The notes under the pieces: model-generated
Seen by the model: the letters and a program-made list of their open reading frames with translations, nothing else
Database searches by the model: none
Told to the model about the DNA's origin: nothing
Shown here: positions 16,846 through 55,922 of the stretch, one piece after another
Layout of the letters: every line of letters begins with the position of its first letter
Position numbering within the stretch: position 1 is the first letter of the stretch
DNA from: a virus
DNA: 64,000 nt
Virus record (IMG/VR): IMGVR_UViG_3300005466_000026
Coordinates: 21,775-85,774 of that record
Reading direction: 5' to 3' (one strand)
Made by a program: the position numbers and the translations under genes

Positions 16846-18849
16846 CTATTTTGGAAGGTCAGCCCACGTGCCGGTCGCGGTTCCCCACGTCCGGCCGTAC
16901 TCGGCGTCCACCATCATGGGAACCTCGAGAGAAACTATCTCGCGCATGATCTGCGTTATCTCGTTCCCTGTCTTCTCACTGGCCTGACTGAAGCCGAGCT
17001 CGTCGTGCATCTGGATGAGCGGTACGTGGCCAGCATCGTAGCACGCTCGCATGGCCATCTTGGTCTGCCGCGCCGCGCTGCCCTGAATGAGACCATTCAT
17101 GGCCTTTCGACACTCGGCCCGCCGCAGTCTCTTGCCGTACCACGGATGGTCCTTGTCCCTCACCCGCTCGCGAGCCTCCTCGATCCGGCAGTAGCCCATC
17201 TTGATCTGGCCGCCGCTGCCCCATCCTCTGCGCCGCTCGTCCTCTGAGAGCCAAGTCGGCTCCCACATGTCGAAGTGAATTCGGGCTCCGTCTATCAGCC
17301 GTATGAACCCGGTGCGACTGGCCTTCTCCTGACACAGAGTGTTCAGCTGCTTGACGAACGGCATCTGCTCGTCGTACTGCGTCATTATCTTCTCGGCCTC
17401 CTCCATGCTCTTGTTGATCATGGAGGCGAACTTCTTCACGCCAGCGCCGTACGACTTCGCGAAATTCGTGTCCTTCGCTGGCTTGCGCGGCAGACCAGTC
17501 ATGTCGGCGACCATGCTGTGAAAGTCGGTGCGCGGATCTGTTCTGTAGCGAGTCGCGGCCTCCAGCGCCTTCTTCAGCTTGTTGCGAACCGCGAAGTGCA
17601 CTATCAGCCGGTACTCCTGCTGAGAGTAGTCCGCCGACATCCACGCCTCGCCCTCCTCGGGCAGGAACAGCCCCCGGATGAGCGTCGCCAGCTCCTCGTT
17701 CCGATGCGGCATCTGCTGCAGCGGGGGGTCGGAGTAGCTGAAGCGATAAGTGCGAGTGCCGCCCTCCTCGGACTTGAACTGATTGATGGAGGCGTGAAGC
17801 CTGCCGAGATGGGCGTAGTCTATGATGTACGACTGAACGAACTTGTGCGCGGCCTCGTGATACTCCTTCGCCTTGACCAGCATGGGAGGGAGCCAGTGCG
17901 GCGAGTCCTTCATCCACTTCTTCTCGAAGCTGCCGCGTCCAGTACCGTCGCGCGGGAACTTGATCTTCAGCTTGGTGAATACGTCCGTCATCCAGCCGTT
18001 GGATCGCAGGTCGTCGATGTCGACGCCGTGTCCCAGCTTGGAGCTGATGTCGCGGAAGGTCTCCCTAGACGTCTCGATGCAGTGTGCCTTCACCTGCTCG
18101 GCGGCCTCTAGATCTACGCGAATGCCGCGCCTGCGCATGGCGTGGACCACCGGCAGGAGATCCATCTCGAGCTGGTACGCGTCTACTGTCTTCTCCTTCT
18201 CCATCAGCGGTCGCAGCTTGTGCGCCAGCTGGAGCGTGCGAACCGCGTCGGTCTCCGCGTACTCTCCCACGAACTTGGCCGGGAGCCGCCACATGTCCGT
18301 CTTCGGATCGATGCCGTAGGACGCCGCTGCGTCTCTGAGAACTCGCTCCTCCTTGCCCGGTAGTCCTTGCCACTCGCAGAGCGCGTCGAGATTGAACTCG
18401 AAGCGGTTCTCGTCTATCATGTTGGCCATGCACGTCGTGTCGTCCACCTGGGATGGACACCCGACGCCGAGATCTACGTCGCCCCATCCCACGTCGAACG
18501 GCGCGTTCTGCATCACGAAGCGGACGCCAGCCCTCTGATGGTCCTTCTCCCATCTGGCGATCTGGTCGGGCTGGAAGCACTCGGTGTCCGGATGCCTGAT
18601 CGGCGCGTAGAAGGACTCGAAGACCTCACCCTTCTTCCACGCTGCGCTGACGCCTATCACGTAGCCAGCCTTCATCGCCCATCCTGGACCGCGCTCGGCC
18701 GCGAGGCCGTCGTCCTTGCACTCGCGGTCGAAGCCTATCTCCTTGCACCTGCGGAGATCAGGCAGCTCAGTCGGCGGCTCCCAGTCGCTGGTCGGCGTGA
18801 ACAGCGGGTCCTGAAAGCCGCCGACGTGATAGTTCTTGCGCTTCTTCAA
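16846..18849 (-). CDS. Family A DNA polymerase with 3'-5' exonuclease domain
   Basis: Replicative polymerase of the PolA/T7 type. I start at TTG 18849, which overlaps the upstream TGA and follows GGAGGCGGAGAC, giving 667 residues. Proofreading domain: FDREC with D41/E43 (Exo I), NAPFD 115-119 (Exo II), YAETD 198-202 (Exo III). Polymerase domain: motif A DYSQQEYR (407-414), motif B KDTNFAKSYG (459-468), motif C MHDEL (614-618). No 5'-nuclease domain is present. All key catalytic residues are there. It leads the cluster of DNA synthesis and modification genes. Confidence 0.95.
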   Translation of the reverse strand: MKKRKNYHVGGFQDPLFTPTSDWEPPTELPDLRRCKEIGFDRECKDDGLAAERGPGWAMKAGYVIGVSAAWKKGEVFESFYAPIRHPDTECFQPDQIARWEKDHQRAGVRFVMQNAPFDVGWGDVDLGVGCPSQVDDTTCMANMIDENRFEFNLDALCEWQGLPGKEERVLRDAAASYGIDPKTDMWRLPAKFVGEYAETDAVRTLQLAHKLRPLMEKEKTVDAYQLEMDLLPVVHAMRRRGIRVDLEAAEQVKAHCIETSRETFRDISSKLGHGVDIDDLRSNGWMTDVFTKLKIKFPRDGTGRGSFEKKWMKDSPHWLPPMLVKAKEYHEAAHKFVQSYIIDYAHLGRLHASINQFKSEEGGTRTYRFSYSDPPLQQMPHRNEELATLIRGLFLPEEGEAWMSADYSQQEYRLIVHFAVRNKLKKALEAATRYRTDPRTDFHSMVADMTGLPRKPAKDTNFAKSYGAGVKKFASMINKSMEEAEKIMTQYDEQMPFVKQLNTLCQEKASRTGFIRLIDGARIHFDMWEPTWLSEDERRRGWGSGGQIKMGYCRIEEARERVRDKDHPWYGKRLRRAECRKAMNGLIQGSAARQTKMAMRACYDAGHVPLIQMHDELGFSQASEKTGNEITQIMREIVSLEVPMMVDAEYGRTWGTATGTWADLPK

Positions 18850-19808
18850 GTCTCCGCCTCCCACGCGCGGTCTATCAGGTGATGCTTCTCGTCGCTCGGG
18901 TTCCACTCGTAGAGTGTAGCGACCCACTCCTGCATCTTCTCCCACTCGTGACGATTGGCTTCTTCCTGAAACTTCGGGAAGTACTCTCTGGCGCCGAGAG
19001 GACACAGAGCGATCTTGACGACGTACAAGTTACCCTGCGTCGGCTTGAAGTCGTACAGACTGCGGATGAGCGCGGGCGGCTCTCCGAACTTCGGATCGCA
19101 CACGCTGGCCTCTAGAACCCACAGAGGACCGACTCTTCTGAACCACGTCTCGATGTGCATCTGCGTGAATACGTTGTTGATCACGTCGTCGGTCATCACC
19201 CACGGAGCCAGCGACTCGTGCTGCCCGCCGTCCTCAGGAGTACCGATGACTCTCTTGTCGTCGAACGGTGGTTTAGAGTACGCGTCCACCGACTCTACGC
19301 TGGTGTCGCTGTTCCAGACCTCGCTCATCCTGCGAGCCTCCTCCGCAGTCAGCCGAGGCGCGACGATGATCTTCTTCTCTCGCTCCGGCAGCACCGCGCC
19401 GCGCGAGATCATCTCGGCCTCGATCAGCGTGGCGTAGCGCCGCAGGTCCCGGAGGCAGGCTAGAACGCTGCCGTCCTTGCCGCTCGGGTCGTCGTGTATC
19501 TTCTCGAAGACGTCCTCCTCGCTCAGCTTCTGCACCATCCACTCGGCCAGCTCGTGAGACAGCGTGTACTCCTTGTCCGGGTCCGTAGCTACGTCCTGAA
19601 GGTCCTCTCGGCTGAAGCTCTCCGGCCACGGCACGGAGGCCATCATGTTCAGCAGTCGGTCCATGTTCCTGCGAAACATGAACCACGCGCTTCGTCCACC
19701 GGCCATCTTCCAGCTTCCCTGATAGGTGGCCTCCTTCTCCCTGAGCAGCATGACGTCGCTGTCGGCGACGCGCTGCAGATGCTCCAGATGCTTCATGTCG
19801 TGGCTCAT
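18846..19808 (-). CDS. Protein with Nmad1-like (DUF1599-like) N-terminal domain
   Basis: ATG 19808 overlaps the upstream stop. The N-terminal 90 residues (REKEATYQGSWKMAGGRSAW, then FRRNMDRLLNM) resemble nucleotide modification associated domain 1, found next to thymidylate-synthase-like enzymes in phages with modified bases. The later part is beta-rich (WVLEASVCDPKFGEPPALIR; YVVKIALCPLGAREYF) and not recognised. Nmad1 proteins have no established biochemistry that I know. Its position between the polymerase and the HD/thymidylate-synthase-like genes supports a nucleotide role. Confidence 0.6.
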   Translation of the reverse strand: MSHDMKHLEHLQRVADSDVMLLREKEATYQGSWKMAGGRSAWFMFRRNMDRLLNMMASVPWPESFSREDLQDVATDPDKEYTLSHELAEWMVQKLSEEDVFEKIHDDPSGKDGSVLACLRDLRRYATLIEAEMISRGAVLPEREKKIIVAPRLTAEEARRMSEVWNSDTSVESVDAYSKPPFDDKRVIGTPEDGGQHESLAPWVMTDDVINNVFTQMHIETWFRRVGPLWVLEASVCDPKFGEPPALIRSLYDFKPTQGNLYVVKIALCPLGAREYFPKFQEEANRHEWEKMQEWVATLYEWNPSDEKHHLIDRAWEAET

Positions 19809-20311
19809 GATATCTTCACTCCCTTCATCCACTCGTCGACCTTGACGTACTGATACAGCTCGTCCGCCATCTTGAGTGCGATCTCTCTGGTGTCGCGCAT
19901 GGGTATTGCGGCGTACTGATTACCCATCATGAACTCGTGAAAGCAGAACTCGTACATCTCCAGCAGGTCGCAGATCTTGAACCGCTTCCACTCGTCCTCT
20001 CGCATCTGCGGCAGCTCGATCTGCTGATGACCCAGACCCAGTCTCTCGGCCTCGTTGACAGCCGCGCCGTAGCCCTCGACTCGGTGCTTGCCGCCGAACG
20101 GAACGTCGCCGGCGAACTGCTCTCCCATGTCGTGATGCAGGCAGTAGTAGAGAACCTCCGCGCGAGGAATACCGAACACCTCGCAGTAGATCTGCGCGAC
20201 GCGACCCTGATGCTCGATCACGTTCGGCTTTCGCAGAGTCGGCCAAGTGTGCCATCGCGCCACCTGACCGGCTAGATGCCTTGATCTGTAGACTTGATCT
20301 CTAGTAACCAT
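19805..20311 (-). CDS. HD-domain hydrolase (YfbR-like 5'-nucleotidase type)
   Basis: The 168 residues show the HD order: early RSRHLAGQVARWHTWP and EHQGRVA (first His), YYCLHHDMGEQFAGDVPFG (the HD pair and ligand region) and KICDLLEMYEF (late Asp). YfbR-like enzymes dephosphorylate deoxynucleoside monophosphates; in phages they often sit next to dNMP-modifying enzymes, removing the unmodified nucleotide. Substrate is inferred from context. It is tightly coupled to both neighbours. Confidence 0.8.
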   Translation of the reverse strand: MVTRDQVYRSRHLAGQVARWHTWPTLRKPNVIEHQGRVAQIYCEVFGIPRAEVLYYCLHHDMGEQFAGDVPFGGKHRVEGYGAAVNEAERLGLGHQQIELPQMREDEWKRFKICDLLEMYEFCFHEFMMGNQYAAIPMRDTREIALKMADELYQYVKVDEWMKGVKIS

Positions 20312-21463
20312 TCACATCCTCCTCGTCATCCACTCGGTGCACGCCACGCGCCAGTCCTCTGACTGGATCTCGTTGGCTGCAGCCACCGCTCTTATCTTCT
20401 GGCCGTCTCTCCACAGACGGTGCGACCGAACAACCGGCTGAGCAACCTCGCAGAACCAGTCGTTCTCGCAATGTCTCAGAGGTACGTCGCTCTCTGTTCG
20501 GTAGCACTCGTCGTGCCACGACATGAACTCGATGACGTCCTCGTCGGCCTTCTCTCCGACCGTGAATACCGGGCGCGTCTTCAGCCGAAGAGAGAAGTAC
20601 CTGTCGTCGTGCAGGGCGCCGACTATGCTGCTCTCCTCCTTGGCCATTCGCTTGGTCATAACGCCGAGCATCGTCTCGTACATGTGAAAGTTGTTCGAGA
20701 GAACGTACAGATCACCCATCGCCACGCCGACGCGAGCAGCCAGATACTCCTGCAGAAAGCTGAAGTGCACCGAGTTCGCGCCGTAGAGTCCCCAGACGAT
20801 GTCGTTACTGCGGCAGCACACCGTCATGTCCAGAACTCTGTTCCCCTTAGATATGACCACGCCGTCCGGCCAGTGATCTGGACCGTCTCCGCGCACTCTG
20901 AGATAGATGTGCGTGTTGCACGGTCTGTCCTTCCACTCGCCGGTGAGGTCCAGAGCGCCGACCTCCTGCTCGCCGACGTTGCCGTTACCCAGACTAACGG
21001 GCAGCGTGACGCTGGAGCAGTCCCACATCTGGATGACGCACTGACGCGTCCCCGGGTCCTTGATCAGCCGATCCACGACCGCTCCCAGCTGATCAAGTCC
21101 GAAGCGGAAGCGCCATCGGTGTCCGTACGCTCCGTGGATCTGACCCCCGGCCTCCCAGTTCGCGCTCCCGCTGGCGCTCTCGGCGAACCGCTGGCCGAAG
21201 TCCGTCACGTAGTGGTTCAGCGTCTCGGCGTCGTCCCTGCCAGCCAGCATCCAGATGGCCTCCACGACGTGAAAGAATGGATTGGCATCTCTCACCTTGC
21301 TGAAGACCACGCGCTCCCACGGTCTCTTGAGGCGCGTGACGACGGGACCGGGGGCGACTAGGCAGGGACCCGCCCGAGTCTTCTCGAGCAGGCCGGAGTT
21401 GATTAGCAGGTGCACTCCCTTCGGGAGTGCCGCCGCTGAGTTCGTGGTGTCGATGACGTGCAT
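20312..21463 (-). CDS. Thymidylate synthase / dNMP hydroxymethylase family enzyme
   Basis: The family uses 5,10-methylene-tetrahydrofolate to methylate or hydroxymethylate position 5 of dUMP or dCMP. Motifs: YGHRWR (113-118), PC with the catalytic Cys182, CRSNDIVWGLYGAN (217-230) and NNFHMY (257-262). The Asn in GAN sits about where Asn177 of E. coli ThyA contacts uracil; dCMP hydroxymethylases usually have Asp. This favours dUMP as substrate. At 383 residues it is longer than ThyA (264), with an insertion around 150-178 and a C-terminal extension. The HD, Nmad1-like and DNA-kinase-like neighbours favour hydroxymethylation over plain thymidylate synthesis. Confidence 0.85.
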   Translation of the reverse strand: MHVIDTTNSAAALPKGVHLLINSGLLEKTRAGPCLVAPGPVVTRLKRPWERVVFSKVRDANPFFHVVEAIWMLAGRDDAETLNHYVTDFGQRFAESASGSANWEAGGQIHGAYGHRWRFRFGLDQLGAVVDRLIKDPGTRQCVIQMWDCSSVTLPVSLGNGNVGEQEVGALDLTGEWKDRPCNTHIYLRVRGDGPDHWPDGVVISKGNRVLDMTVCCRSNDIVWGLYGANSVHFSFLQEYLAARVGVAMGDLYVLSNNFHMYETMLGVMTKRMAKEESSIVGALHDDRYFSLRLKTRPVFTVGEKADEDVIEFMSWHDECYRTESDVPLRHCENDWFCEVAQPVVRSHRLWRDGQKIRAVAAANEIQSEDWRVACTEWMTRRM

Positions 21464-21479
21464 CTGTGGCTCCTGTCGG

Positions 21480-21758
21480 TCAGAACGGTATCTCGTCGTC
21501 GTCCACCTCGGTGCGGCGTTTGCCGCCTCCGAAGGACGGCTTGTCGTCGCCGCTGCCGCTGCGCTCTGCGCGCTCCTTCGGCTCGAACAGCATGATAACT
21601 ATCTTGTTCTCCTTCTTGGGGTCCGGGACGGGGACGCTGTCCAGGTAGATAGTGATCTGTCCCTTGTCGTTCTGGTGAGCCTGTCCTACTCGGTGCCACC
21701 AGACACCGTCCTCGTTGTACTTAGGTCTCGGAGTCATCGCGTCGTATCTCTTCGGCAT
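21480..21758 (-). CDS. 92-aa protein with SSB-like acidic tip
   Basis: The body (DGVWWHRVGQAHQNDKGQIT, then a strand LDSVPVPDP) resembles small plasmid and phage proteins of unknown function with the W-x-R-x-G-x-A-x-x-x-x-D-G pattern. The C-terminus EVDDDEIPF strongly resembles the DDDIPF tip by which bacterial SSB recruits replication proteins. It may bind ssDNA, or use the tip to recruit SSB partners. It overlaps the end of the upstream gene by 38 bases. Confidence 0.65.
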   Translation of the reverse strand: MPKRYDAMTPRPKYNEDGVWWHRVGQAHQNDKGQITIYLDSVPVPDPKKENKIVIMLFEPKERAERSGSGDDKPSFGGGKRRTEVDDDEIPF

Positions 21759-22200
21759 GTGGCTGTCCCTTGAGATAGAGTTCTTCCAGCAGTATCGCCG
21801 CCAGACCCGCGCACTCTGGATCGTTGTACCAGCGGCACAATCCAGAGGGATGAGGTAGCTGCCGCCATGTGCATCCGTTCATCTGAACAGGGTGAATAAG
21901 TATCTTGGGGAGCTCCAGTGCACTGCGCACCTGCTCCCCGAACACGACAATGGTACGTCCGGCGTAGAGCGAAGGAAAACGCTCCGCCGCTGCCTTGGCC
22001 ACCGGCCTGCTCCACGTTCTGGAGTTGATCAGGTTGAGCCGCTCGAAGCCGTCCATGTATCCCTTTCGCGTGACCTGCGGCTGGCGCGTCTGCAGAAGCC
22101 TCCAGAGACGGTAGCCGCTGCTCCCGGACGGGAACGGAGCGAGCGCGTACCTGGGATCCGCCGACAGCGGATTGTTCATTCCCAGCAGTACGGCCCTCAC
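21721..22200 (-). CDS. Uracil-DNA-glycosylase-superfamily-like protein
   Basis: GTG 22200 overlaps the kinase stop (GTGA). Of the 159 residues, LLGMNNPLSADPRYALAPFP occupies the place of UDG motif I, FERLNLI and TIVVFGEQV fit the core strands, and LPHPSGLCRWYNDPE resembles the HPS-containing leucine-loop motif of families such as MUG/TDG. It could recognise or process a modified base, or be a fold relative without glycosylase activity. The motif I residues are not canonical, so this is a fold-level call. Confidence 0.55.
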   Translation of the reverse strand: MRAVLLGMNNPLSADPRYALAPFPSGSSGYRLWRLLQTRQPQVTRKGYMDGFERLNLINSRTWSRPVAKAAAERFPSLYAGRTIVVFGEQVRSALELPKILIHPVQMNGCTWRQLPHPSGLCRWYNDPECAGLAAILLEELYLKGQPHAEEIRRDDSET

Positions 22201-22745
22201 ACCAGATTGAGCCACCGAAACACCTTCGCGAACACCTGCTCGCGGGATCCTAAAAAGCATTCCACCTTCTCCTCTTGAAAGTCGTAGTAGTGTCTGCGAC
22301 TCTTTCTGTGCAGCGCCTCGATAGTCTTCTCCTGGATCTTGTGACCGCGCTCACGAACGGCCTTGACGCAGTCCTCCAGAGGCTCGTCTATCAGGGCGAC
22401 CGCTATCGGTAGTCCGGCGTCCCGAAGATCGAGCAGGTTCTGTGGCTTGTCGGTGAAGTTCTTTCCCTCGTAGAGCACGTTGCATCCGAGCTCCAGAGCG
22501 TGGATCCTCATCAGTTCGTACGCCAGCGGTAGACTAGGCAGCGTGTCCAGTCCGCCGTTCGCTATCTCGTAGTGTCCGGGAACGTACAGATGCTTCTCGT
22601 TGATGTTGTTGTGAGTCAGGATGTATCCGGCAGGCTTCTGTCTGCCGGGATACTCCAGCTTGCGGCTCACCGGATAGAAGGACATGATCCTGCGGACCAG
22701 ATGCGACTTGCCCGCGCCGTTCGTTCCCAGGAGACTGATTATCAT
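22197..22745 (-). CDS. P-loop kinase resembling phage 5-hydroxymethyl-dU DNA kinase
   Basis: Walker A is LGTNGAGKSHL at residues 6-16. The rest fits a nucleotide-kinase fold: YEGKNF after a long helix, DEPLEDCVKAVRERG as the lid and late helices with a KSRRHYYDF stretch. Phages with hypermodified thymine encode P-loop kinases of this size (about 180 residues) that phosphorylate 5-hmdU in DNA. The context (thymidylate-synthase-like, HD, AADT-like and radical SAM genes) supports that, but a free-nucleotide or RNA kinase cannot be excluded. ATG 22745 overlaps the upstream stop. Confidence 0.6.
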   Translation of the reverse strand: MIISLLGTNGAGKSHLVRRIMSFYPVSRKLEYPGRQKPAGYILTHNNINEKHLYVPGHYEIANGGLDTLPSLPLAYELMRIHALELGCNVLYEGKNFTDKPQNLLDLRDAGLPIAVALIDEPLEDCVKAVRERGHKIQEKTIEALHRKSRRHYYDFQEEKVECFLGSREQVFAKVFRWLNLV

Positions 22746-23119
22746 GAGTGCTGATCCAGCTGACTGATCTCGTGCATGTTCGCCAGCGCGAACTCTCGAC
22801 GGTCCTTCTTGTCCATGTCGTAGCACATCAGCAGCCACTGAGGAGTCTCGTACCACTCGCTGGTTCCCCACCGCACGCTGATGGGATTAACTGTTCGCCA
22901 GCTGAACGAGCCGCGATAGTTGACGTAGCTGAAGCGAAGAGTCTGCGTCGGCCGAGCCTCGTCCTGATGCATCTCCAGTATGCGAGCCAGCGCGGACAGA
23001 TGATTGGTCGCCGAGGTGATCACCTCTCGAGCTCCCGTGTAGGACCATGCCGGATGCTCGCGACATAGCCTCTCGATGCTGGCGGCTAGATCTCTCAGGC
23101 TATGCTTCTGCGCTGGCAT
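22742..23119 (-). CDS. WYL-domain-like protein
   Basis: ATG 23119 follows GGAGGCGAC. After a helical N-terminus, residues 68-120 (LRFSYVNYRGSFSWRTVNPI, then PQWLLMCYDMDKKDRREFAL) follow the WYL pattern: Y-x-N-x-x-G, R-x-V-x-P, W-x-L-x-x-Y-D, R-x-F-x-L. WYL domains sense ligands or nucleic acids, often in defence and DNA-repair regulators. Here there is no HTH, so it may be an effector-binding subunit. Confidence 0.6.
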   Translation of the reverse strand: MPAQKHSLRDLAASIERLCREHPAWSYTGAREVITSATNHLSALARILEMHQDEARPTQTLRFSYVNYRGSFSWRTVNPISVRWGTSEWYETPQWLLMCYDMDKKDRREFALANMHEISQLDQHS

Positions 23120-24179
23120 CGTCGCCTCCTCTGGGTCCCTGATAGGCTGGCACCGGCTCGCGATCCTTCCACGGCAGACGCACCACCTTGTCGCGCTGAC
23201 CATGCGAGAGAGCCTCCTGGATGTCTGCCGCCGTCTGCGCGTCGGGCTTGTGCAGCTTGCCCTGACCCATCAGGTCCGGAAGCAGGCCGACGCGATAGCT
23301 GCGATGATTGCACCCTCGGCACGGCGTGAAGTCGCGCTCGCCGCGTATCAGCTTCTCCCTGGCGGCTCCCATCGCGTCGCCCTGCCACAGCTCACCGATG
23401 TTGGTCTCGTTCGTGTTGCCCACGAAGTACGGACTGTCCCACGTGTTGCAGCACAGAGGAACGTTGCCGTCCCAGTGAATGGCGATCTGCCTGAACGGAT
23501 GATGACACCGCTTGCCTGCCATACTGTCGTCGGGCGCGAAGGCGAGGCCAGCGTAGTTGAACACCTTGCCGTGATTGCCAATCTTCTTGTCGGCCGCCTG
23601 CGACGCGAGATCCCGTATCTTCACCAGCGTCCTCGTGCCCGGTCTTCGGCGCTTGTGCGGGTTCCCGCGAATGTCCCGCGGATAGTCGTAGTAGGTGAAG
23701 CCAAGAGGATGCTTGACGCCCGATCGCAGCTTGCCCTTCTCCTCGATGGCCGCGATGACCTTCTCCACGAACTTCACGTTCTCGTAGTCGTCCAGCCCGA
23801 GGACGCTGACGCCAGCGTCGAACAGCGCTGTCACGTTCACCACCGGACCCGGCTTCCTGAGTAGTCCCCCGGCGTTGGTCAGCATCGTGATGTGCGCCTT
23901 CGGCAGACACTCGCGAGTGGCCGCCATCATCCCCACGTAGTCCGGATGCATGGTGGGCTCACCGCGCATGGCGAAGCCGACGCGACAGTTCCAGCCGAGA
24001 GCTCTCACGTCCGTGAGCGCCTTGACCAGCGTCTCCTTCTTCATGAACTCGTATCCCTTGCCCTGCTTCTCCTGTATCGCGGAGACCGCGCAGAAAGGAC
24101 AGTTTAGATTACAGCCGCGCGTCAGCTCCAGCGTGACGTTGAACGGGGGTTCCTGAGTACGGTATCTTCGGCGCGTCAT
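23100..24179 (-). CDS. Radical SAM enzyme with SPASM-like C-terminal cysteines
   Basis: The 4Fe-4S motif is CNLNCPFC (Cys23, 27, 30), preceded by a strand LELTRG. AMRGEPTMHP is the GGEP-like SAM-binding motif. Near residue 240 a second Cys set begins (RCHHPF, CCNTW, then CRGCNHR), as in SPASM auxiliary cluster domains, which act on peptides or carbohydrates. In hypermodified-thymine phages a radical SAM enzyme can rearrange the amino acid attached to DNA; here the substrate is inferred from neighbours. 359 residues, ATGA-coupled to the glycosyltransferase-like gene. Confidence 0.8.
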   Translation of the reverse strand: MTRRRYRTQEPPFNVTLELTRGCNLNCPFCAVSAIQEKQGKGYEFMKKETLVKALTDVRALGWNCRVGFAMRGEPTMHPDYVGMMAATRECLPKAHITMLTNAGGLLRKPGPVVNVTALFDAGVSVLGLDDYENVKFVEKVIAAIEEKGKLRSGVKHPLGFTYYDYPRDIRGNPHKRRRPGTRTLVKIRDLASQAADKKIGNHGKVFNYAGLAFAPDDSMAGKRCHHPFRQIAIHWDGNVPLCCNTWDSPYFVGNTNETNIGELWQGDAMGAAREKLIRGERDFTPCRGCNHRSYRVGLLPDLMGQGKLHKPDAQTAADIQEALSHGQRDKVVRLPWKDREPVPAYQGPRGGDDASAEA

Positions 24180-25126
24180 AGGTTCTTCTCCAGTCTGTTG
24201 TAGGCCTCTAGGACCTTGTCCTTCAGATCTCGCTTCTCGCGAGCAGCCTTCAGCCACCATCGGTCCTGCTGCTCCTTCAGTATCTCTGCCCGTCTGGACA
24301 TCCTGCGCTGAACGGAGGCCGCGTTGCTGACCAGGAAGTCTCCTGGGTCATAGCCTGCCTTGCGCAGCGTGTAGCCCGCCTCCTCCTGGAACACCATAGG
24401 AAGTCCGCCGCTGAGCATCTCGTAGAAGCGGTTGGGAGGCGAGTGGAAGTTGCTGTGCGACTTGGCGTCCTCGAGATAGAGGCCGAGGCCGTGCCGTCCC
24501 AGCTCGGAGTGCAGATCCTCTATCTTCTTGACGTGTCGCACGTTGGGTCCGTTGTACTTCTGCTCGAACCGACTTGTCGGCGAGGAGATGGTTATGGGCA
24601 GCGACGGACTGTTGAAGAACTTGTCGAACGCCTTGGTTCGGCCGGCTCGGAAGCTTCCGTAGTAGAAGAGGTCTCCGGCGTCCTTCTTATTCAGAGGCGG
24701 CTTCTCCTCCTCGAACCCCAGAGCGTTCCAGTTTATCAGCGAGCTGAGAGTCGTGAGCTTGCTCTCCCTCTCGCAGGTCGTCCAGAACTCCAGGTGCGAC
24801 TTACCCGCCTTGCGTCGGTCGACGAACGCCTTGCGGAACGGCGACGTAGCGTCGCCGTCGTTGATGGGCGGAACTATGGTGTAGTCCTGCTGTATCCAGA
24901 CGATGCGCCTGACGCCGCGTATGGCGTGCGACAGCGGCTCTAGATGCTTGCAGAAGGCGTATGCCCCGTTCACTATGAAGAGGACGTCCGCCGTCTTGTA
25001 GAGCTCAATGGTCTCGTCGTCCACCAGCGGCAGGTCCAGCGTCTTGCTGAGAAAGAACGCCGCCTTGACCGACGCGACCATCGACTTCTCGCTGCACGCT
25101 ATGAAGCTGAATATGGCTGCCTTCAC
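24176..25126 (-). CDS. GT-B-like glycosyltransferase
   Basis: The 316-residue product has a two-domain layout. The C-terminal half begins DLFYYGSFRAGRTKAF and contains GLGLYLEDAKSHSNFHSP with PNRFYEMLSGGLPMVFQEEA, the E-x-x-x-x-G-x-P signature of nucleotide-sugar-binding GT-B domains. GTG 25126 follows AGAGGTGAGAC. It would transfer a sugar to an unknown acceptor; in this island modified DNA is an attractive candidate, as in T4-type hmC or kinetoplastid base J systems. LPS or protein glycosylation are alternatives. Confidence 0.7.
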   Translation of the reverse strand: MKAAIFSFIACSEKSMVASVKAAFFLSKTLDLPLVDDETIELYKTADVLFIVNGAYAFCKHLEPLSHAIRGVRRIVWIQQDYTIVPPINDGDATSPFRKAFVDRRKAGKSHLEFWTTCERESKLTTLSSLINWNALGFEEEKPPLNKKDAGDLFYYGSFRAGRTKAFDKFFNSPSLPITISSPTSRFEQKYNGPNVRHVKKIEDLHSELGRHGLGLYLEDAKSHSNFHSPPNRFYEMLSGGLPMVFQEEAGYTLRKAGYDPGDFLVSNAASVQRRMSRRAEILKEQQDRWWLKAAREKRDLKDKVLEAYNRLEKNL

Positions 25127-25332
25127 GTCTCACCTCTCTGCTTCTGGAAGTCCCTGACTTGGTTAATTATCCTCTGCTTCGCGCCCGAAGCCAAGTTCTG
25201 AATGGCTCTCTGCTGCCAGCACGTGGGATCTCGCGGCGGCAGATGCGAGACGTAGTCTGCGTAGCTGAGAACGTCTCCGTAGTCGGAGTCCGTGTCCCGA
25301 GCGATCTTGAGAAGCGGATAGCTGGTGCTCAT
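25123..25332 (-). CDS. Hypothetical 69-aa protein
   Basis: A small soluble protein (MSTSYPLLKIARDTDSDYGD; CWQQRAIQNLASGAKQRIIN) coupled by ATGA-type overlaps to the methyltransferase and glycosyltransferase genes. It could be an accessory subunit; no family recognised. Confidence 0.6.
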   Translation of the reverse strand: MSTSYPLLKIARDTDSDYGDVLSYADYVSHLPPRDPTCWQQRAIQNLASGAKQRIINQVRDFQKQRGET

Positions 25333-25943
25333 CTTCGGTCCATTCTCAGGACGTGCCAGCCTGCCTCGAAGATCGGCACGTCACCCGTGATCTTGAAGCC
25401 GCCGCGACTGATCATGGCCAGGAACTTCTTCCTGTCGTGCTCTGCCGTGTTGCTCTTCAGCACGTACTTGTCGCCGAAGCGTATCGTGCAGATGATGGAC
25501 CTCTTCGCGAGCTTCATGAAGCCCCTCATGGCCGCCTGCATGGAGGGCTCGTCGATGAGGTCCAGGAACCGCACCGCCACGATCACGTCGGAGGGTGGCA
25601 AGCCCTCCAGCTTTCTGGCGTCGCCGACCTGCAGGACGTAGGACGGCGGCACCTTCTTGTTCTTCAGCTTCCCCTTAGCTATGGCGAGCATCTGCTCCGA
25701 GGAGTCTACGCCCGTAACGGTGGCCACGCTCAGCTGATGATACAGATAGAAGAACCTGCCGGTTCCCACCGGGCAATCGATCACGGTCTGCGGCCTCAGC
25801 TCGGTGAGCATGTCCTCGACCGCCGCGTTCTCCTCGCCCCATCGTATCTGCTTCTTGCGCTTGGCCTCGTAGCCGCTCGCCATCTTACCGCGATACTTTC
25901 TCGCGGTCCTGTCTCCCAGATTGAATGCCGCAGATGGTCTCAT
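25329..25943 (-). CDS. Class I SAM-dependent methyltransferase
   Basis: Motif I is TVIDCPVGTGRFFYLYHQ (about residues 53-70), followed by the acidic end of strand 2 (VTGVDSSEQMLAIAKGKL) and VGDARKLEGLP as motif III. No DNA-MTase DPPY/PC motif is visible, so a small-molecule, lipid or sugar substrate (UbiE/COQ5-like) is more likely than direct base methylation. In this island it may methylate an added group. It could also serve the glycosyltransferase product. Confidence 0.75.
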   Translation of the reverse strand: MRPSAAFNLGDRTARKYRGKMASGYEAKRKKQIRWGEENAAVEDMLTELRPQTVIDCPVGTGRFFYLYHQLSVATVTGVDSSEQMLAIAKGKLKNKKVPPSYVLQVGDARKLEGLPPSDVIVAVRFLDLIDEPSMQAAMRGFMKLAKRSIICTIRFGDKYVLKSNTAEHDRKKFLAMISRGGFKITGDVPIFEAGWHVLRMDRR

Positions 25944-26138
25944 CTATCTCCTCCCCTTGCTGTCGAAGACTACTCTTCCGGTTGATCTCTCGAAGCACGT
26001 GACCGCCGCGCTGCTGTTTCTAGCCATCGCGCCCACGAACTCCTTGCAGGCTTCCTTGCTGTCGAACTTGACCTGCTTCGGCTCCTCGCATCCGAGGAAG
26101 CTGCAGAACGTTATGAGTACGAAGAATGGACTTTCCAT
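25944..26138 (-). CDS. 64-aa protein with N-terminal hydrophobic segment
   Basis: The start MESPFFVLITFCSFLGCEEP looks like a very short signal sequence; LGC followed by acidic residues could even be a lipobox. The rest contains VKFDSKEACKEFVGAM. It lies just downstream of the homing endonuclease, overlapping its end by 28 bases. Function unknown. Confidence 0.55.
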   Translation of the reverse strand: MESPFFVLITFCSFLGCEEPKQVKFDSKEACKEFVGAMARNSSAAVTCFERSTGRVVFDSKGRR

Positions 26139-26917
26139 GTCACTTCTCCTAATTGCTGCTTCATCTTCATGCCTTTATTCCACGGTTCTCGTCCTTTCAT
26201 TGCGGCACTCATTTTTGCACGAGACTCAAGAGTGTGCTTCTTACCTTTTCTCTTCGACGGTTTTCCTTTCTGTGCTGCGCTCATCTTAGCTCGAGACTCA
26301 GCTGTATGTTTCCGACCTGCTATCCAGGGAATTTGACCCTTATGAACATCACTCATCTTTTTTCGGTGCTCAGGATTTTCCCACGCCTTCTTGATTAAAT
26401 CTTTCAATATGATTGAGCCTCTCTCACGATAATCAGGATCTTTCCATCTTTCTTTTGACTCTCTTCTCATTTTATTCGCTTGGCGCTCTCGATACTCTGG
26501 ATCTTTCCACTGCTCTTTTAATTGCCTTGTCATAGAAGCACTCCTACGCTCACGAAATTCAGAGGACTCCCATAGCTTCACGACTGCTAGTCTCATTGCT
26601 TCACGTGAAGCTTCTCTGGAGATAGCGTATTGCCAGCTAGAGCATGGTCTGCCTTGAGTCATTCTACTGAGTGCACTCACCATCTGATGATGTGCTCTGC
26701 CATCAAGAATAAATTTAGTCAAGAGCCAGTGTGCCAGAAAATGTTCTCGATAGGTCAGTGAGACCAAGTTCTCTGAGCTGTTATACCAGCTCGGATCTCC
26801 GCCGAAACTTCTAGGGTTTCGGTGATGTCTCTCGTAACGTACTCCTGGTTCGCGCTCGCGGCTCGCGGCGCGATCCATGATCTGCGTGTACCAGAGACGA
26901 TACTTCTCAGTGCTCAC
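26111..26917 (-). CDS. HNH homing endonuclease with NUMOD3 repeats
   Basis: ERHHRNPRSFGGDPSWYNSS then ENLV and HFLAHWLLTKF give the HNH catalytic arrangement. Repeats of EF/YRER..S..M..E.WKDPEYRER type follow, and the C-terminal repeats RKHTAESRAKMSAAQKG and KKHTLESRAKMSAAMKG are NUMOD3 DNA-binding motifs. GTG 26917 overlaps the AADT-like gene stop. It is visibly more A/T-rich than its neighbours, as expected for a recent mobile insert. Flanking genes look complete, so it appears free-standing rather than intron-encoded. Confidence 0.85.
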   Translation of the reverse strand: MSTEKYRLWYTQIMDRAASREREPGVRYERHHRNPRSFGGDPSWYNSSENLVSLTYREHFLAHWLLTKFILDGRAHHQMVSALSRMTQGRPCSSWQYAISREASREAMRLAVVKLWESSEFRERRSASMTRQLKEQWKDPEYRERQANKMRRESKERWKDPDYRERGSIILKDLIKKAWENPEHRKKMSDVHKGQIPWIAGRKHTAESRAKMSAAQKGKPSKRKGKKHTLESRAKMSAAMKGREPWNKGMKMKQQLGEVTWKVHSSYS

Positions 26918-27789
26918 GCGAACACTCCTCTTGGTCTGCCCTCGCCGTTCCTGACTCTCTCGTACTTGTCGAACTCGCAGAGCGTGTGCTCGACGTCTCG
27001 CATCTCCCACTTGGGCCACTGCCTCGGCCAGTTGCCCGGACTGCAACTGGCCGCGAGGATCAGCTGCATCTCCTCCAGCATCTTGGGCACCCTGACGCTC
27101 TTATCCTTCTTGTTCCTGCCGTGTATCCGGTTCAGTCCGCGCCTCGCCCCCGGTCCCACGTTGCACCAGCTCATGATGTCGTTCGCGTCGCAGAGAAGGT
27201 TGGTGTGCCGCAGGTCCGTGACTATCTCGTACGAGTGAAATGTGCCGAGCCACGGCTGCATCTTGAACCAGAGCCAAGCCGTCTGCAGAGACATCTTCTC
27301 CTTAATCATCTGCTTGGCAGCGTCCCTCCATCCGCTCTCCTCTCTGAAGTTCTTCAGGATCTCCAGGATCCCGTCCAGCTTGGTGAAGCCGGGGGGAGAG
27401 GTTATGATGTACGCTCCGGTGACGTAGGGGCCGTCACCGCAGATCGCCTTGACGTCCTTCTTCATGCGTCGCAGGTCTCCGGTCTGCAGGAACACCGCGA
27501 AGGCGTTGTTCTTGTCGAAGTCCAGGTGATTGAAGATGGCCTCTCCCGTGCTGATCCTGTTGAACATGCGGAACACGACCGTGGCCAGTAGCACGTCCGG
27601 CGAGTCTCTCATCTCCTCCCTCACGTTGCGTCGGAACCAGTCAGTGGTCTTGTCCAGCTCCCGGAAGACGTTCGTGAACCTGTACTTCTGCAGGATCGGG
27701 TCCCTCGTCAGGGACGACTTCCCCTCCAGACGGTTCAGGTACACCTGATGTCGCTGCCTCGCGTAGTTGAAGAAGGACTGCATCGTCAT
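26914..27789 (-). CDS. Amino acid:DNA transferase-like protein (aGPT-pyrophosphorylase / HMUDK helical family)
   Basis: Residues 5-60 (YARQRHQVYLNRLEGK, DPILQKYRFTNVFRELDKTT) match the helical family predicted as alpha-glutamyl/putrescinyl-thymine pyrophosphorylase, later shown in phages such as ViI and M6 to attach amino acids to pyrophosphorylated 5-hmdU in DNA (AADT). Also typical are GAYIITSPPG (about 146-155) and SYEIVTDLRHTNLLCDANDI plus a late basic GARRGLNRIHG. 291 residues is the expected size. It is one of the clearest markers of thymine hypermodification here. ATG 27789 lies within the end of the exonuclease frame. Confidence 0.75.
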   Translation of the reverse strand: MTMQSFFNYARQRHQVYLNRLEGKSSLTRDPILQKYRFTNVFRELDKTTDWFRRNVREEMRDSPDVLLATVVFRMFNRISTGEAIFNHLDFDKNNAFAVFLQTGDLRRMKKDVKAICGDGPYVTGAYIITSPPGFTKLDGILEILKNFREESGWRDAAKQMIKEKMSLQTAWLWFKMQPWLGTFHSYEIVTDLRHTNLLCDANDIMSWCNVGPGARRGLNRIHGRNKKDKSVRVPKMLEEMQLILAASCSPGNWPRQWPKWEMRDVEHTLCEFDKYERVRNGEGRPRGVFA

Positions 27790-28528
27790 GGCTCATCTCC
27801 AGTACATCTTTGAGTGGCTTAGAGTTCCAGAACTCGGCTACGTAGCGCTCCTCCTCGCCGAAGTCCTCCTGCCGCAGGATCCAGGACAGGTAGCTCCGGT
27901 CTATCTCCCTGACGTGCCTCCACTCCATGCCCTTGTACTTGCCGAAGCCGATGATCCTCTGCAGATACGGAGTGTTGGTCAGCTGCACCAGCTCGTCCGC
28001 CGTCTTGAGCGTGAGCATTCGCAGGACCAGCGTGGCGGTCGTCAGCGCGTCGGGCATCGCTCGGTGGGGAGGCCTGATGCAGTAGGGCACCGCGAGGTCC
28101 AGCCAGTATCGCAGCACCTGATTGGAGTGCCTCGGCGCGTCCGGCCACAGATGACGCGACGCCCTCCAGGTGCAGATCACCTTGACGCCCGGAGCCTCCT
28201 GCGTCAGCTTGTAGCCCGACTGCTCCAGCATCCGCAGATCGAAGTCCGCGTAGTGCATCGCCACGTACTGCGATGTCTTGATCTCCGTGAGGATGGACTT
28301 GTTGCGAGCCATCAGCTTGGCCATCGTGGGCGCGTGCTTCAGCTGATCGTCCGTGATGTGATGCACGGCTCTAGCTATCACGTTCATCGAACAGGTCGGC
28401 TTCACCAGCTGATCCCTTCCGAGTATCATCTGCTGAGTCTCTGCGTCGACGGTCGCCACGGCCAGCTCGCACACCTGATCCTGCTCGCTGTCTCCCGTGG
28501 TCTCCGTGTCGACTACCGCTATCCGCAT
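27641..28528 (-). CDS. DEDDh 3'-5' exonuclease (ExoX/DnaQ-like) with DUF3820-like domain
   Basis: VVDTETTG (residues 5-12) is Exo I; HYADFDLRMLE is Exo II; the late HRAMPDALTTA is the H-x-x-x-x-D Exo III. These are the catalytic residues of DnaQ-type nucleases. IGFGKYKGMEWRHVREIDRS, then YLSWIL (about 195-220), is the small domain often fused to phage ExoX. It would degrade ssDNA or 3' ends in repair and recombination. After EMSHDDAVL the product reads a Pro/Gly-rich tail that overlaps the next gene by 149 bases and may be non-functional. Confidence 0.8.
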   Translation of the reverse strand: MRIAVVDTETTGDSEQDQVCELAVATVDAETQQMILGRDQLVKPTCSMNVIARAVHHITDDQLKHAPTMAKLMARNKSILTEIKTSQYVAMHYADFDLRMLEQSGYKLTQEAPGVKVICTWRASRHLWPDAPRHSNQVLRYWLDLAVPYCIRPPHRAMPDALTTATLVLRMLTLKTADELVQLTNTPYLQRIIGFGKYKGMEWRHVREIDRSYLSWILRQEDFGEEERYVAEFWNSKPLKDVLEMSHDDAVLLQLREAATSGVPEPSGGEVVPDEGPDPAEVQVHERLPGAGQDH

Positions 28529-51652: not shown

Positions 51653-51818
51653 TCTTCTTTCCCTTGTTCTCTGGCCTCTCAACCACGACTGCGCACTCCT
51701 CGCGAACTGCCTTCTCGGCGCAAGCTCTCTTCACCAAGTAGGTCCCAGGCTTGTAAGACATCACGGACCTAGAAGACGGCCAGTAGTCGAACGGCTTCGT
51801 GACCTTTATCCACGGCAT
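51639..51818 (-). CDS. 59-aa hypothetical protein
   Basis: Start at ATG 51818, one base overlapping the glycosyltransferase-like stop. The sequence PWIKVTKPFDYWPSSRSVMS, YKPGTYLVKRACAEKAV is a common type of tiny protein in head-tail gene clusters of alphaproteobacterial phages. Role unknown. Confidence 0.65.
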   Translation of the reverse strand: MPWIKVTKPFDYWPSSRSVMSYKPGTYLVKRACAEKAVREECAVVVERPENKGKKNVVR

Positions 51819-52621
51819 CAGCGTATCATTCTCCACAGAGTTCCGTTGACCAGCTCGTCCTCGTTCCACTGATTGTACGCCAAGCTGTGAAGCCAAGGCA
51901 TTCGCTCCGGATAGACTGGCTTTTCTATTCTAGTGAAGTCTGTCTCGCCCACCAGCGCAGCAGCGCTCATCTTGTCGACGAACACCGGGCATCCCATCAC
52001 CACGGCCTCTACCGCGGCGATGCTACCGTGCGTGACTAGACAGTGAGCGTCAGCCAACTCCTTCTCGAGCGGCACCGGGCTCTCCTTGTGCCGCACGAAG
52101 ATCGGCCGATCAGTGTACTTCTTGAGCTCCTCGGCCACGTCCCTCGCCCAATAGACGTGAGCGAAGAGGTTCCAGTAGTCCGGCAGCGTGTCGGCTATCA
52201 CGATGCGCTTGCCGCTACTTCTCCACGGACGCAGCGACGACTCTAGTTTTAGAAACTTCCACCGATCCTCTGGTACGTCAGCGATGCTCTGCATCTGAAA
52301 GTGGTTGACATGCCATCTATAGTATCCTCCAGGAATTCCCATCTCACTGCCCTTGGGCAGATGCGTGGCAAACACGCGACGAAGATAGCCGCGATCCCAG
52401 TATATGAACTTTCTTCCGCTCTTTCTCCACTTGTCGTACCAAGGCTTGAGGAAGGGACTGCATCCGACGATGGGTATGACGTGCTCTGGCAGGTCATCAA
52501 GTCGCTGAGGATCGTCACGAACAACTCTCCCTATCTTCTGCCCTATGCGCTCGAACAAGTTCAACTTGAACTTCTTCAGTCCAGGAGGAATGAACAGAGC
52601 AACTGACTGCGGGTCTATCAT
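51818..52621 (-). CDS. Capsule/Kdo-transferase-like glycosyltransferase candidate
   Basis: TGATG overlap sets ATG 52621. AHCLVTHGSIAAVEAVVMGC, then PVFVDKMSAAALVG resembles the nucleotide-sugar-binding end of capsule polysaccharide export/transferase proteins (KpsC/KpsS type). The N-terminal half (SVALFIPPGLKKFKLNLFER) fits the first GT-B domain. The call rests on this one motif. It is the last of eight surface-glycan-type genes. Confidence 0.6.
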   Translation of the reverse strand: MIDPQSVALFIPPGLKKFKLNLFERIGQKIGRVVRDDPQRLDDLPEHVIPIVGCSPFLKPWYDKWRKSGRKFIYWDRGYLRRVFATHLPKGSEMGIPGGYYRWHVNHFQMQSIADVPEDRWKFLKLESSLRPWRSSGKRIVIADTLPDYWNLFAHVYWARDVAEELKKYTDRPIFVRHKESPVPLEKELADAHCLVTHGSIAAVEAVVMGCPVFVDKMSAAALVGETDFTRIEKPVYPERMPWLHSLAYNQWNEDELVNGTLWRMIR

Positions 52622-53292
52622 CACACCCTCCAGTGCTTCTGCACCCAGTCTAGATGCGTGAACTGCTCAGGCTTTCTCCAGCCGATGAACGCGACGATGC
52701 GACAGTTCAGCGGCAGAGCCGAGGAGTGCGGCGGCCATCCGGGCTTCTTGAAGCCGTAGATACCTGACGGATGTCCGCCCTTCCAGGTTCCGGCTTCAGG
52801 AAGCATGTGCCAGATCCAGCCCTGATCGTCAGGGAAGTCGTGATACTGTATCTTCTGCGCCTTATCCAGCGAGAAGTTTCTCCAGACCTCTGAATGACTA
52901 CCCGGTCTCAGCATGTAAATGCTGCAGTTGAACGGATTAGGATTAATCGCGTTGACACCCTTCAGTATGACGAAGGGCTCCTCCCGATCGAACAGCGGAT
53001 CCGTCCTGTCGACTATGACCAAGTCCAGATCAACTCCAACTATCCTGTCGGTGAGCTCGTGACGAGCCTGCCACTCCGGATCGAACGTGCGCAGCCTGCA
53101 GAAGCAGCCGCGCCCGATGAGCTCCTTGTCCTCCAGAGGAACCACGTCGTACCTGTCGCACGACTTGACGTCTCTGTCCGTTACCAAGACCAGTCTGTGC
53201 TTCTGCGCGTAGTGCCTGCGCAGGCCAGCGGCCAGCTTCTCCACGGACTCCAGGGGATACTTGCTGCCCCAGAGCCACGCCACGAAGTTCAC
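52621..53292 (-). CDS. GT-A-type glycosyltransferase-like protein
   Basis: GVDLDLVIVDRTDPLFDREE contains a D-x-D metal motif after a hydrophobic strand, as in GT8-like enzymes. HRLVLVTDRDVKSCD and NPNPFNCSIYMLRPGSHSEV fit the nucleotide-sugar and acceptor parts. The sugar is unknown. I prefer GTG 53292 (GTGA overlap) over the GTG six bases earlier. 223 residues. Confidence 0.7.
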   Translation of the reverse strand: MNFVAWLWGSKYPLESVEKLAAGLRRHYAQKHRLVLVTDRDVKSCDRYDVVPLEDKELIGRGCFCRLRTFDPEWQARHELTDRIVGVDLDLVIVDRTDPLFDREEPFVILKGVNAINPNPFNCSIYMLRPGSHSEVWRNFSLDKAQKIQYHDFPDDQGWIWHMLPEAGTWKGGHPSGIYGFKKPGWPPHSSALPLNCRIVAFIGWRKPEQFTHLDWVQKHWRV

Positions 53293-53858
53293 AGCCACAG
53301 CACACCGATCCCGTTGTCCTGACTGTCCATCCGTATCTCCTGGTGACGATGCCGGGCTTTTATCTCCCTCCAGAAGATGGGAACCTCTATCGGCTTCTTG
53401 TGCGGAGGCAGACCCTTCTTGCGATAGAATCCTATGTCGTGAAATGCTATCATCTTGGTGAGAGGACTGTAGTTCTCCCAGTCCTTCTTGACGTAGGGCA
53501 GCGTGTGATTAGCGTCTATGAACACAGCGTCAAAGGGACCTAGCGCGCGCACCTTGTCAATTATGTTCTTATCTGTGCTGTCTCCGAGTAGCAGATGCGC
53601 GTCATATCCGCGCTTCTTCAGCTCAGCTACGCACTCCTCTAGAGGCCCCTGACTCTTCTTGAATGACGCGTCACCGTGCGGCAGATCCACCGACACGATC
53701 CTAGATCCCCCCATTAGCTTGTTCGCGACGTACCAAAGAGATCCACCAAATTTGGATCCGACCTCCAGATACGACTTCACGTTATTGTCCACCAACAACT
53801 TGGTGAAGACCTCGATCTCAGTTCTATTCTGCAGTATCCCAGTCTCACACTTCATCAT
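53289..53858 (-). CDS. Class I methyltransferase (Methyltransf_24-like)
   Basis: VKSYLEVGSKFGGSLWYVAN is motif I, VSVDLP ends strand 2, and FDAVFIDANHTLPYVKKDWE plus MIAFHDIGF are the late motifs of SAM-dependent sugar or small-molecule methyltransferases. It is embedded between two glycosyltransferases, so a sugar substrate is likely. 189 residues. Confidence 0.75.
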   Translation of the reverse strand: MMKCETGILQNRTEIEVFTKLLVDNNVKSYLEVGSKFGGSLWYVANKLMGGSRIVSVDLPHGDASFKKSQGPLEECVAELKKRGYDAHLLLGDSTDKNIIDKVRALGPFDAVFIDANHTLPYVKKDWENYSPLTKMIAFHDIGFYRKKGLPPHKKPIEVPIFWREIKARHRHQEIRMDSQDNGIGVLWL

Positions 53859-55921: not shown

Positions 55922-55922
55922 C

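Follow-up and report, generated by a model that had tools for sequence, protein, structure and literature searches.

The closest described counterparts of the gene island analysed here are the thymidine hypermodification systems of the M6/PaMx11 type, known here through two reports (PMC6449724 and PMC9476957). In the M6-like phage SN1 the cassette comprises a hydroxymethylase, Nmad5, aGPT-Pplase1, a kinase, a radical S-adenosylmethionine (SAM) enzyme, a pyridoxal phosphate (PLP) enzyme and aGPT-Pplase2 (PMC9476957), while M6 gp51 is an amino acid:DNA transferase (ADDT) of family PF18724. The island reported here lies in a stretch of 64,000 nucleotides (the window), which covers positions 21775-85774 of the 85,774-base IMG/VR virus record IMGVR_UViG_3300005466_000026. 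We consider it likely that it represents a branch of thymidine hypermodification in phages that proceeds by glycosylation, with a glycosyltransferase (GT) in the place of ADDT. As in the M6/PaMx11 type, a probable hydroxymethylase of the thymidylate synthase (TS) family, a putative kinase of the 5-hydroxymethyldeoxyuridine (5-hmdU) DNA kinase (HMUDK) type, a PF18723 protein, an HD-domain protein and a uracil-DNA glycosylase (UDG)-like protein are encoded near a family A DNA polymerase. Unlike that type, the record contains no ADDT, PLP enzyme, flavin adenine dinucleotide (FAD) lyase or acetyltransferase, its radical SAM enzyme belongs to a different family, and a GT with the fold of a DNA glycosyltransferase occupies the place of ADDT.

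The glucosylation of 5-hydroxymethylcytosine (5hmC) in phage T4, performed by gp42 and the beta-glucosyltransferase (beta-GT), also combines a TS-family hydroxymethylase with an enzyme of the beta-GT fold, encoded near the polymerase. However, the base predicted for the window derives from dU/T, not dC, and PF18723, the kinase, the radical SAM enzyme and the methyltransferase have no T4 counterpart in such an arrangement; by analogy, the window cassette may be a thymine-base counterpart of T4 glucosylation. In the clusters that join TET/JBP oxygenases with GTs, as in the synthesis of base J, a 5-hydroxymethylpyrimidine in DNA is likewise glycosylated, and a sister clade of the same GT family is found there. 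In the window, by contrast, 5-hmdU is expected to arise at the nucleotide level, and a search of the record for Tet_JBP, performed without a positive control, gave no match. Thymine positions bear a sugar or an oligosaccharide-like group in phages SP-15 and YerA41 (PMC5977210, PMC9023294): phosphodiester-linked and plain sugars coexist on the modified uracil of SP-15 (PMC5977210), and the DNA of YerA41 is reported to bear a substituent of about 1 kDa and of oligosaccharide character on thymidine (PMC9023294). SP-15 differs in its ThyX-type synthases and separate sugar gene cluster.

The glycosyltransferase and the absence of ADDT from the record

Sequence searches with the GT against Pfam, PHROGs and NCBIfam, and against PDB with both the single sequence and an alignment, were silent or not credible; the comparison of folds alone was informative. 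Its AlphaFold2 model, calculated from an alignment of 35 relatives from IMG/VR (A3), is a confident GT-B fold (pLDDT 94.5, pTM 0.91), and in a Foldseek comparison with the whole PDB the four entries of the T4 beta-GT (1j39, 1bgt, 1c3j and 1qkj) ranked above all other GT-B enzymes, with an E-value of 1.6e-10 and a TMq of 0.70 for 1j39. An earlier reading made from the letters alone (the sequence-only reading) had named a glycosyltransferase here, and the model upholds it where Pfam gives no match. The alignment produced by hhalign pairs YGSFRAGR of the window enzyme with YGGSFRSGQR of T4, and PNRFYEML with LRVWETM. In it R160/R163, D220 and R233/E236 correspond to T4 R191/R195, D258 and R269/E272, which we take to be the residues that bind the UDP-sugar, while D81, outside the aligned region, is placed like the catalytic Asp100 of T4. 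All six residues (D81, R160, R163, D220, R233 and E236) are invariant in the 35 GT sequences; in the wider family, including its most distant clade, R160/R163, D220 and R233/E236 are kept in 66 of 66 members and D81 in 65 of 66. According to PMC4111573, the T4 beta-GT glucosylates 5-hydroxymethyluracil (5-hmU) in DNA to base J. The window GT is a candidate for the transfer of a sugar to DNA.

No match to the ADDT family PF18724 was obtained anywhere in the 85.8-kb record, by a search that does find the enzymes of M6, Epa5 and Pam3; since the record is classed as linear and its ends share no exact repeat, this absence holds for the record and is unproven for the phage. The cassette is not classed as ADDT-type because the defining ADDT was searched for and not found. 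The protein described in the sequence-only reading as AADT-like (26914-27789) proved to be the HMUDK helical-domain protein of family PF18723. Of the profile comparisons with the HMUDK, AADT and Nmad families proposed alongside that reading, PF18723 was matched, and PF18724, Nmad1 and Nmad5 were not. Searches of the record by phmmer revealed no M6-type radical SAM enzyme, FAD lyase or GNAT partner. A match of the M6 PLP enzyme to an open reading frame (ORF) in the structural region (E 0.0026, 12 bits) was taken as chance.

Alternative transferases in PF18723 cassettes

A search of IMG/VR with a six-member GT alignment yielded 69 loci (L numbers denote loci retrieved in this work). Among 50 GT-bearing records, 35 contained PF18723 and none contained PF18724 above the family cut-off, including those of the complete Escherichia coli phages IME392 and EP_H11. 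The genes for the GT, PF18723 and the TS-family enzyme adjoin one another in many distant phage contigs, often together with those for the kinase, the radical SAM enzyme and the methyltransferase. An independent search for PF18723 yielded 80 loci; 50 of their records were scanned for ADDT and for the window-type GT, and ADDT was present in 9 and this GT in none, and a local HMM scan that included positive controls gave the same outcome. The GT profile A3 gave a match for each of seven known positives and none for L122. The supposition that every PF18723 cassette devoid of ADDT has this GT was rejected, others having a TET-associated glycosyltransferase (TAGT, PF20691) or nothing recognised. 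The window-type GT is therefore one of several partners of PF18723.

The co-occurrence of these genes was tabulated for 86 dereplicated PF18723 loci, each of at least 6 kb. ADDT was encoded in 17 of them (all with the kinase), the window-type GT in 26, TAGT in 18, both GT and TAGT in 1, and none of these in 26. ADDT never occurred together with the GT (overlap 0), TAGT or the window-type radical SAM enzyme; Fisher p-values are indicative only, because the GT loci were gathered through a search with the GT. Across these loci the GT replaces ADDT, and the idea that it adds an extra decoration to an amino-acid route is not supported. Nor is the proposal that the phage follows the same route as ViI, M6 and SP10, since PF18724 is missing from the record and, at the family cut-off, from all 50 GT-bearing records, and the PLP enzyme, FAD lyase and M6-type radical SAM enzyme are missing as well.

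TAGT genes were found in the PF18723 cassettes L122:10879-14698, L090:14244-16096, L096:12763-13584 and L154:11681-12472, two of which add a nucleotidyltransferase or an NAD-dependent epimerase; judging from these sequences, TAGT is a putative second sugar-type class of partner for PF18723. L122, which encodes the closest relative of the window PF18723 protein (65%), keeps the genes for UvrD, the exonuclease, PF18723, the UDG-like protein, the 92-aa protein, the TS-family enzyme, the HD protein and the polymerase. Between PF18723 and the UDG-like gene, however, two TAGT genes, a nucleotidyltransferase and a methyltransferase stand in place of the GT and the radical SAM enzyme, as though one module for DNA glycosylation had been exchanged for a second one. 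Three further PF18723 loci (L160:10825-13698, L150:8664-10542 and L155:10897-12932) encode a group-1-like GT and, after it, a radical SAM enzyme of the window family; L160 and L150 also encode a fusion of cytidylyltransferase-like and mannose-6-phosphate-isomerase-like domains.

In 20 of the 27 more distant GT loci (L058-L084) a homolog of TET/JBP-type oxygenases adjoins or lies near the GT gene; these calls rely on homology to two proteins that match Tet_JBP (PF12851) at 6.9e-21 and 6.9e-18. ParB-like genes were present in both TET/JBP-GT loci examined. In the tree of the GT, a clade of the HMUDK type (n = 37, supported at 99/97) is sister to a clade of the TET type (n = 20, 94/95); the fragments L037 and L041 were given their group labels with no PF18723 gene visible on them. 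These TET/JBP-GT loci of phages would correspond to a base-J-like or a 5hmC-sugar arrangement, with the oxygenase as a second way to 5-hydroxymethylpyrimidines in DNA. The presence of such a pyrimidine in DNA is what the two settings of the GT have in common. In IME392 (L021:4078-13616) and EP_H11 (L026) genes for a methyltransferase, a choline/betaine-type BCCT transporter, a PIG-L deacetylase, the GT, PF18723, a P-loop kinase, a TS-family enzyme and an HD protein are arranged in a row, a set that suggests an amino-sugar-type modification. The GTs of these E. coli phages fall inside the TET-type clade, and a literature search gave no paper naming either phage among the matches listed. No GT relative was confirmed in contigs of bacterial genomes and, consequently, no host is proposed. 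One cassette without a kinase has a sulfotransferase-like gene (L045:8857-9630, weak PF17784 match) close to the GT.

Predicted hydroxymethylation core, probable tailoring enzymes and operon

The sequence-only reading had proposed a thymine hypermodification island; this, and its kinship with the islands of M6, PaMx11 and Epa5, is supported by the genes for the TS-family enzyme, the PF18723 protein, the HMUDK-type kinase and the HD and UDG-like proteins. The TS-family assignment is sustained by PF00303 and phrog_5131; this enzyme, the only protein of the record that matches PF00303, shares 33-37% full-length identity with those of M6, PaMx11 and Epa5 (37% with Epa5/Ab18 and 33% with M6). In an alignment with the T4 thymidylate synthase it keeps an Asn, presumably a mark of uracil specificity in the TS family, at the position where T4 dCMP hydroxymethylase has Asp; a preference for dUMP is thus predicted. 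The HD hydrolase was recovered as an HD/YfbR-like match. The UDG-like protein was corroborated through its relatives L142 and M6 gp48, which reach PF03167 at 2.6e-7; its GMNNP and HPSG motifs resemble, as we assume, those of SMUG1. Since it occurs in several classes of cassette, it may recognise or excise 5-hmU.

The identity of the P-loop kinase to that of Epa5 agrees with the original call. M6 gp54, to which the window kinase bears a weak match, belongs to PF18748, for which the Epa5 kinase scores 8e-4, under the cut-off, and the window kinase gave no match to this family in the Pfam search. The 291-aa PF18723 protein is 45% identical to that of Epa5 and 35% to M6 gp55, a member of the same family. 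Neither it nor the kinase had a match in PDB searches. The 320-aa protein encoded next to the polymerase had been called Nmad1-like, a label that has to be withdrawn: it matched neither Nmad1 nor Nmad5, nor any other family in Pfam, PHROG or NCBIfam. Its sole relative among named phages is Pam3_54, annotated as 'nucleotide modification'.

The radical SAM enzyme and the methyltransferase were both correctly recognised in the sequence-only reading, as PF04055 and PF13186 (SPASM/Twitch) and PF13649 attest. The former contains the CX3CX2C motif (C23, C27 and C30) and conserved C225, C243, C287 and C290, as in BtrN-like Twitch enzymes, and BtrN was its best PDB match both by sequence and by fold (Foldseek E 8e-15, model pLDDT 87). 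Lower Foldseek matches included SpeY and DesII, whose substrates are aminocyclitols or sugars, and also peptide maturases. BtrN itself, a Twitch enzyme, catalyses the oxidation of an aminocyclitol, and four cysteines hold its auxiliary cluster (PMC9012708). Relatives of the window enzyme in PF18723 loci adjoin three kinds of GT, namely the window type, TAGT (L154) and a group-1-like GT (L160, weak Pfam match). Together with the match to BtrN, this makes a sugar substrate plausible, and by analogy the protein is a probable sugar-tailoring oxidoreductase. Homologs of the methyltransferase are encoded in the GT cassettes L028-L030, L032, L035, L047 and L048.

All genes between positions 16846 and 28528, from the exonuclease (27641-28528) through the DNA polymerase, are carried by the minus strand (Table 1). 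With the most plausible starts, stop and start overlap by 4 nt at seven gene junctions and two gene pairs abut, in line with the single strand of mostly overlapping genes noted before; such an arrangement is that of a single operon with translational coupling. The island comprises 15 tightly coupled genes. The same gene order is found in the independent contigs L006-L009 with protein identities of 73-100%, and the ORFs are therefore not due to chance. Among named phages the closest DNA relatives give only a 73-base match. The HNH/NUMOD3 gene is absent between the PF18723 gene and the 64-aa ORF in the close relative L007, and is probably a mobile insert outside the pathway.

Table 1. Genes of the island, by position in the window, with the evidence for each.
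Feature	Position	Strand	Evidence
DNA polymerase of family A, neighbouring replication gene	16846..18849	-	PF00476 6.4e-42; start 18849 set by 4-nt overlap
320-aa protein, conserved N-terminal region, function not assigned	18846..19808	-	33% identity to Pam3_54
YfbR-like nucleotide phosphohydrolase with HD domain, probably acting on the nucleotide pool	19805..20311	-	PF12917 2.9e-6; phrog_7076 dATP triphosphohydrolase 1.3e-10
Thymidylate-synthase-family enzyme, 383 aa, probable dUMP hydroxymethylase	20312..21463	-	PF00303 2.8e-15; phrog_5131 1.1e-81
92-aa protein, function not assigned	21480..21758	-	phrog_18187; homologs in L028, L030, L122
Uracil-DNA-glycosylase-like protein, GMNNP and HPSG motifs	21721..22200	-	phrog_12275; alignment to relatives
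P-loop kinase, 5-hmdU DNA kinase type, 182 aa	22197..22745	-	38% identity to Epa5 kinase; phmmer 8.2e-5 to M6 gp54
Small WYL-domain protein, possible regulator	22742..23119	-	PF13280 6.5e-5
Radical SAM / Twitch-SPASM enzyme, 359 aa	23100..24179	-	PF04055, PF13186; start 24179
Glycosyltransferase, T4 DNA beta-glucosyltransferase fold, 316 aa	24176..25126	-	AlphaFold2 model and Foldseek
69-aa ORF, function not assigned	25123..25332	-	4-nt overlaps at both ends; kept in L006-L009
SAM-dependent methyltransferase, probable tailoring enzyme	25329..25943	-	PF13649 1.7e-10
64-aa ORF, function not assigned	25944..26138	-	No Pfam match; kept in L006-L009
HNH/NUMOD3 homing-type endonuclease	26111..26878	-	NUMOD3 1.9e-18; interrupts operon after PF18723 gene
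HMUDK helical-domain protein, aGPT-Pplase1 type, 291 aa	26914..27789	-	PF18723 3.2e-46

Outside the island, the structural/tail region of the window (51818-57397) and of L004 (1041-2135) encodes GT9-like and DUF6716-like probable GTs together with FkbM and RmnT/CmcI-like methyltransferases. This cluster is possibly involved in virion or receptor glycan chemistry, or related to the DNA sugar.

Proposed pathway and its implications

In the proposed pathway, part of the phage thymine is probably replaced by a hydroxymethylated base to which a sugar is then attached. The TS-family enzyme would produce 5-hydroxymethyl-dUMP while the HD hydrolase cuts back nucleotides that compete with it, and the phage polymerase would incorporate 5-hmdU into DNA. 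The PF18723 protein, with the P-loop kinase where it is present, may work at 5-hmdU sites in DNA. The GT would then move a sugar from a nucleotide-sugar onto the 5-hydroxymethyl group or, less likely, onto its phosphate; the Twitch radical SAM enzyme may oxidise or otherwise remodel this sugar and the methyltransferase may cap it. The enzyme activities, the order of the steps, the identity of the sugar and the role of the kinase are those we infer. What computation provides directly is the gene identities, the GT fold, the conservation of residues, the synteny, the absence of ADDT and the mutual exclusivity of GT and ADDT. The sugar branch is favoured because the T4 beta-GT is the top structural match, its residues are invariant, the GT is linked with PF18723 and TS-family genes, a sister clade accompanies TET/JBP, GT and ADDT exclude each other, TAGT genes are swapped in at L122, and the radical SAM enzyme matches BtrN.

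Several points weigh against this proposal. By sequence the GT matches the T4 beta-GT poorly (hhalign probability 10.7%, E 0.0029), and Twitch/SPASM folds are also found in peptide maturases. The record is classed as linear, without an exact end repeat, so that ADDT could be located in missing sequence. If the kinase worked on the hydroxyl that is to receive the sugar, glycosylation would be blocked, and the presence of both kinase and GT is not fully explained; moreover, 14 of the 26 dereplicated loci with PF18723 and the GT have no recognisable HMUDK-type kinase. As most of the kinase-less loci examined also have no P-loop ORF within 4 kb of the GT, the GT is probably independent of the kinase, whose target for phosphorylation in the window may be the sugar, residual 5-hmdU or the position to which the sugar is transferred.

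An alternative, which we regard as unlikely, is a sugar-phosphate route, in which the kinase generates 5-phosphomethyl-dU in DNA and the GT adds a sugar to the phosphate, giving a phosphodiester-linked sugar along the lines of SP-15. The HMUDK-type kinase does occur in the window and in 12 of the 26 GT loci, often 0-50 nt from the GT gene, but the kinase-less loci described above argue against this route, as does the T4 beta-GT fold, which takes a hydroxyl acceptor. The precedent is the modified uracil of SP-15, which bears a glucuronolactone, linked by a phosphodiester, as well as a glucose (PMC5977210). An amino-acid route, with ADDT-type transfer to 5-hmdU, the GT and methyltransferase as extra decorations, and an ADDT too diverged or off the contig, is quite improbable. 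It would account for the kinase and PF18723 shared with ADDT phages, and the record may be incomplete; nevertheless, ADDT was found neither in the record nor above the cut-off in the 50 GT-bearing records, the complete genomes of IME392 and EP_H11 among them, no locus of the 86 has both GT and ADDT, and the PLP, FAD, GNAT and M6-type radical SAM partners are missing from the record. Least probable of all is that the GT, radical SAM enzyme and methyltransferase act off DNA (on a virion protein, lipopolysaccharide or a small molecule) as mere neighbours of a simple 5-hmdU or phospho-5-hmdU pathway: the phage has further GT and methyltransferase genes in its structural region and SPASM enzymes often act on peptides, but the T4 DNA beta-GT fold, the linkage with PF18723 and TS-family genes kept in distant phages, the sister clade beside TET/JBP and the replacement of the GT by TAGT genes in L122 all speak against it.

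It is possible, if short of probable, that the island produces a DNA base of a new class, in which 5-hydroxymethyluracil bears a sugar remodelled (oxidised, deoxygenated or epimerised) by the Twitch radical SAM enzyme and then methylated. In the same tentative proposal, PF18723 would be a general post-replicative adaptor for 5-hmdU with interchangeable transferases (ADDT, the GT of T4 beta-GT fold and TAGT), not a dedicated kinase subunit. The novelty of the GT-bearing PF18723 cassette is stated with reservation, as an earlier mention in the literature is possible. If the sugar-branch reading is right, the Pfam label '5-hmdU DNA kinase, helical domain' would seem too restricted. The GT would be a candidate DNA glycosyltransferase active on 5-hmdU, and the radical SAM enzyme the first to act on a DNA-linked sugar; the related cassette in the complete E. 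coli phages IME392 and EP_H11 opens the idea to direct test. The PF18723 cassette would then be modular, with a core of hydroxymethylase and PF18723, often with the kinase, to which amino-acid (ADDT) or sugar (T4 beta-GT-fold GT, TAGT) transferases can be fitted in exchange, and sugar-bearing thymines would be predicted across many uncultivated phages.

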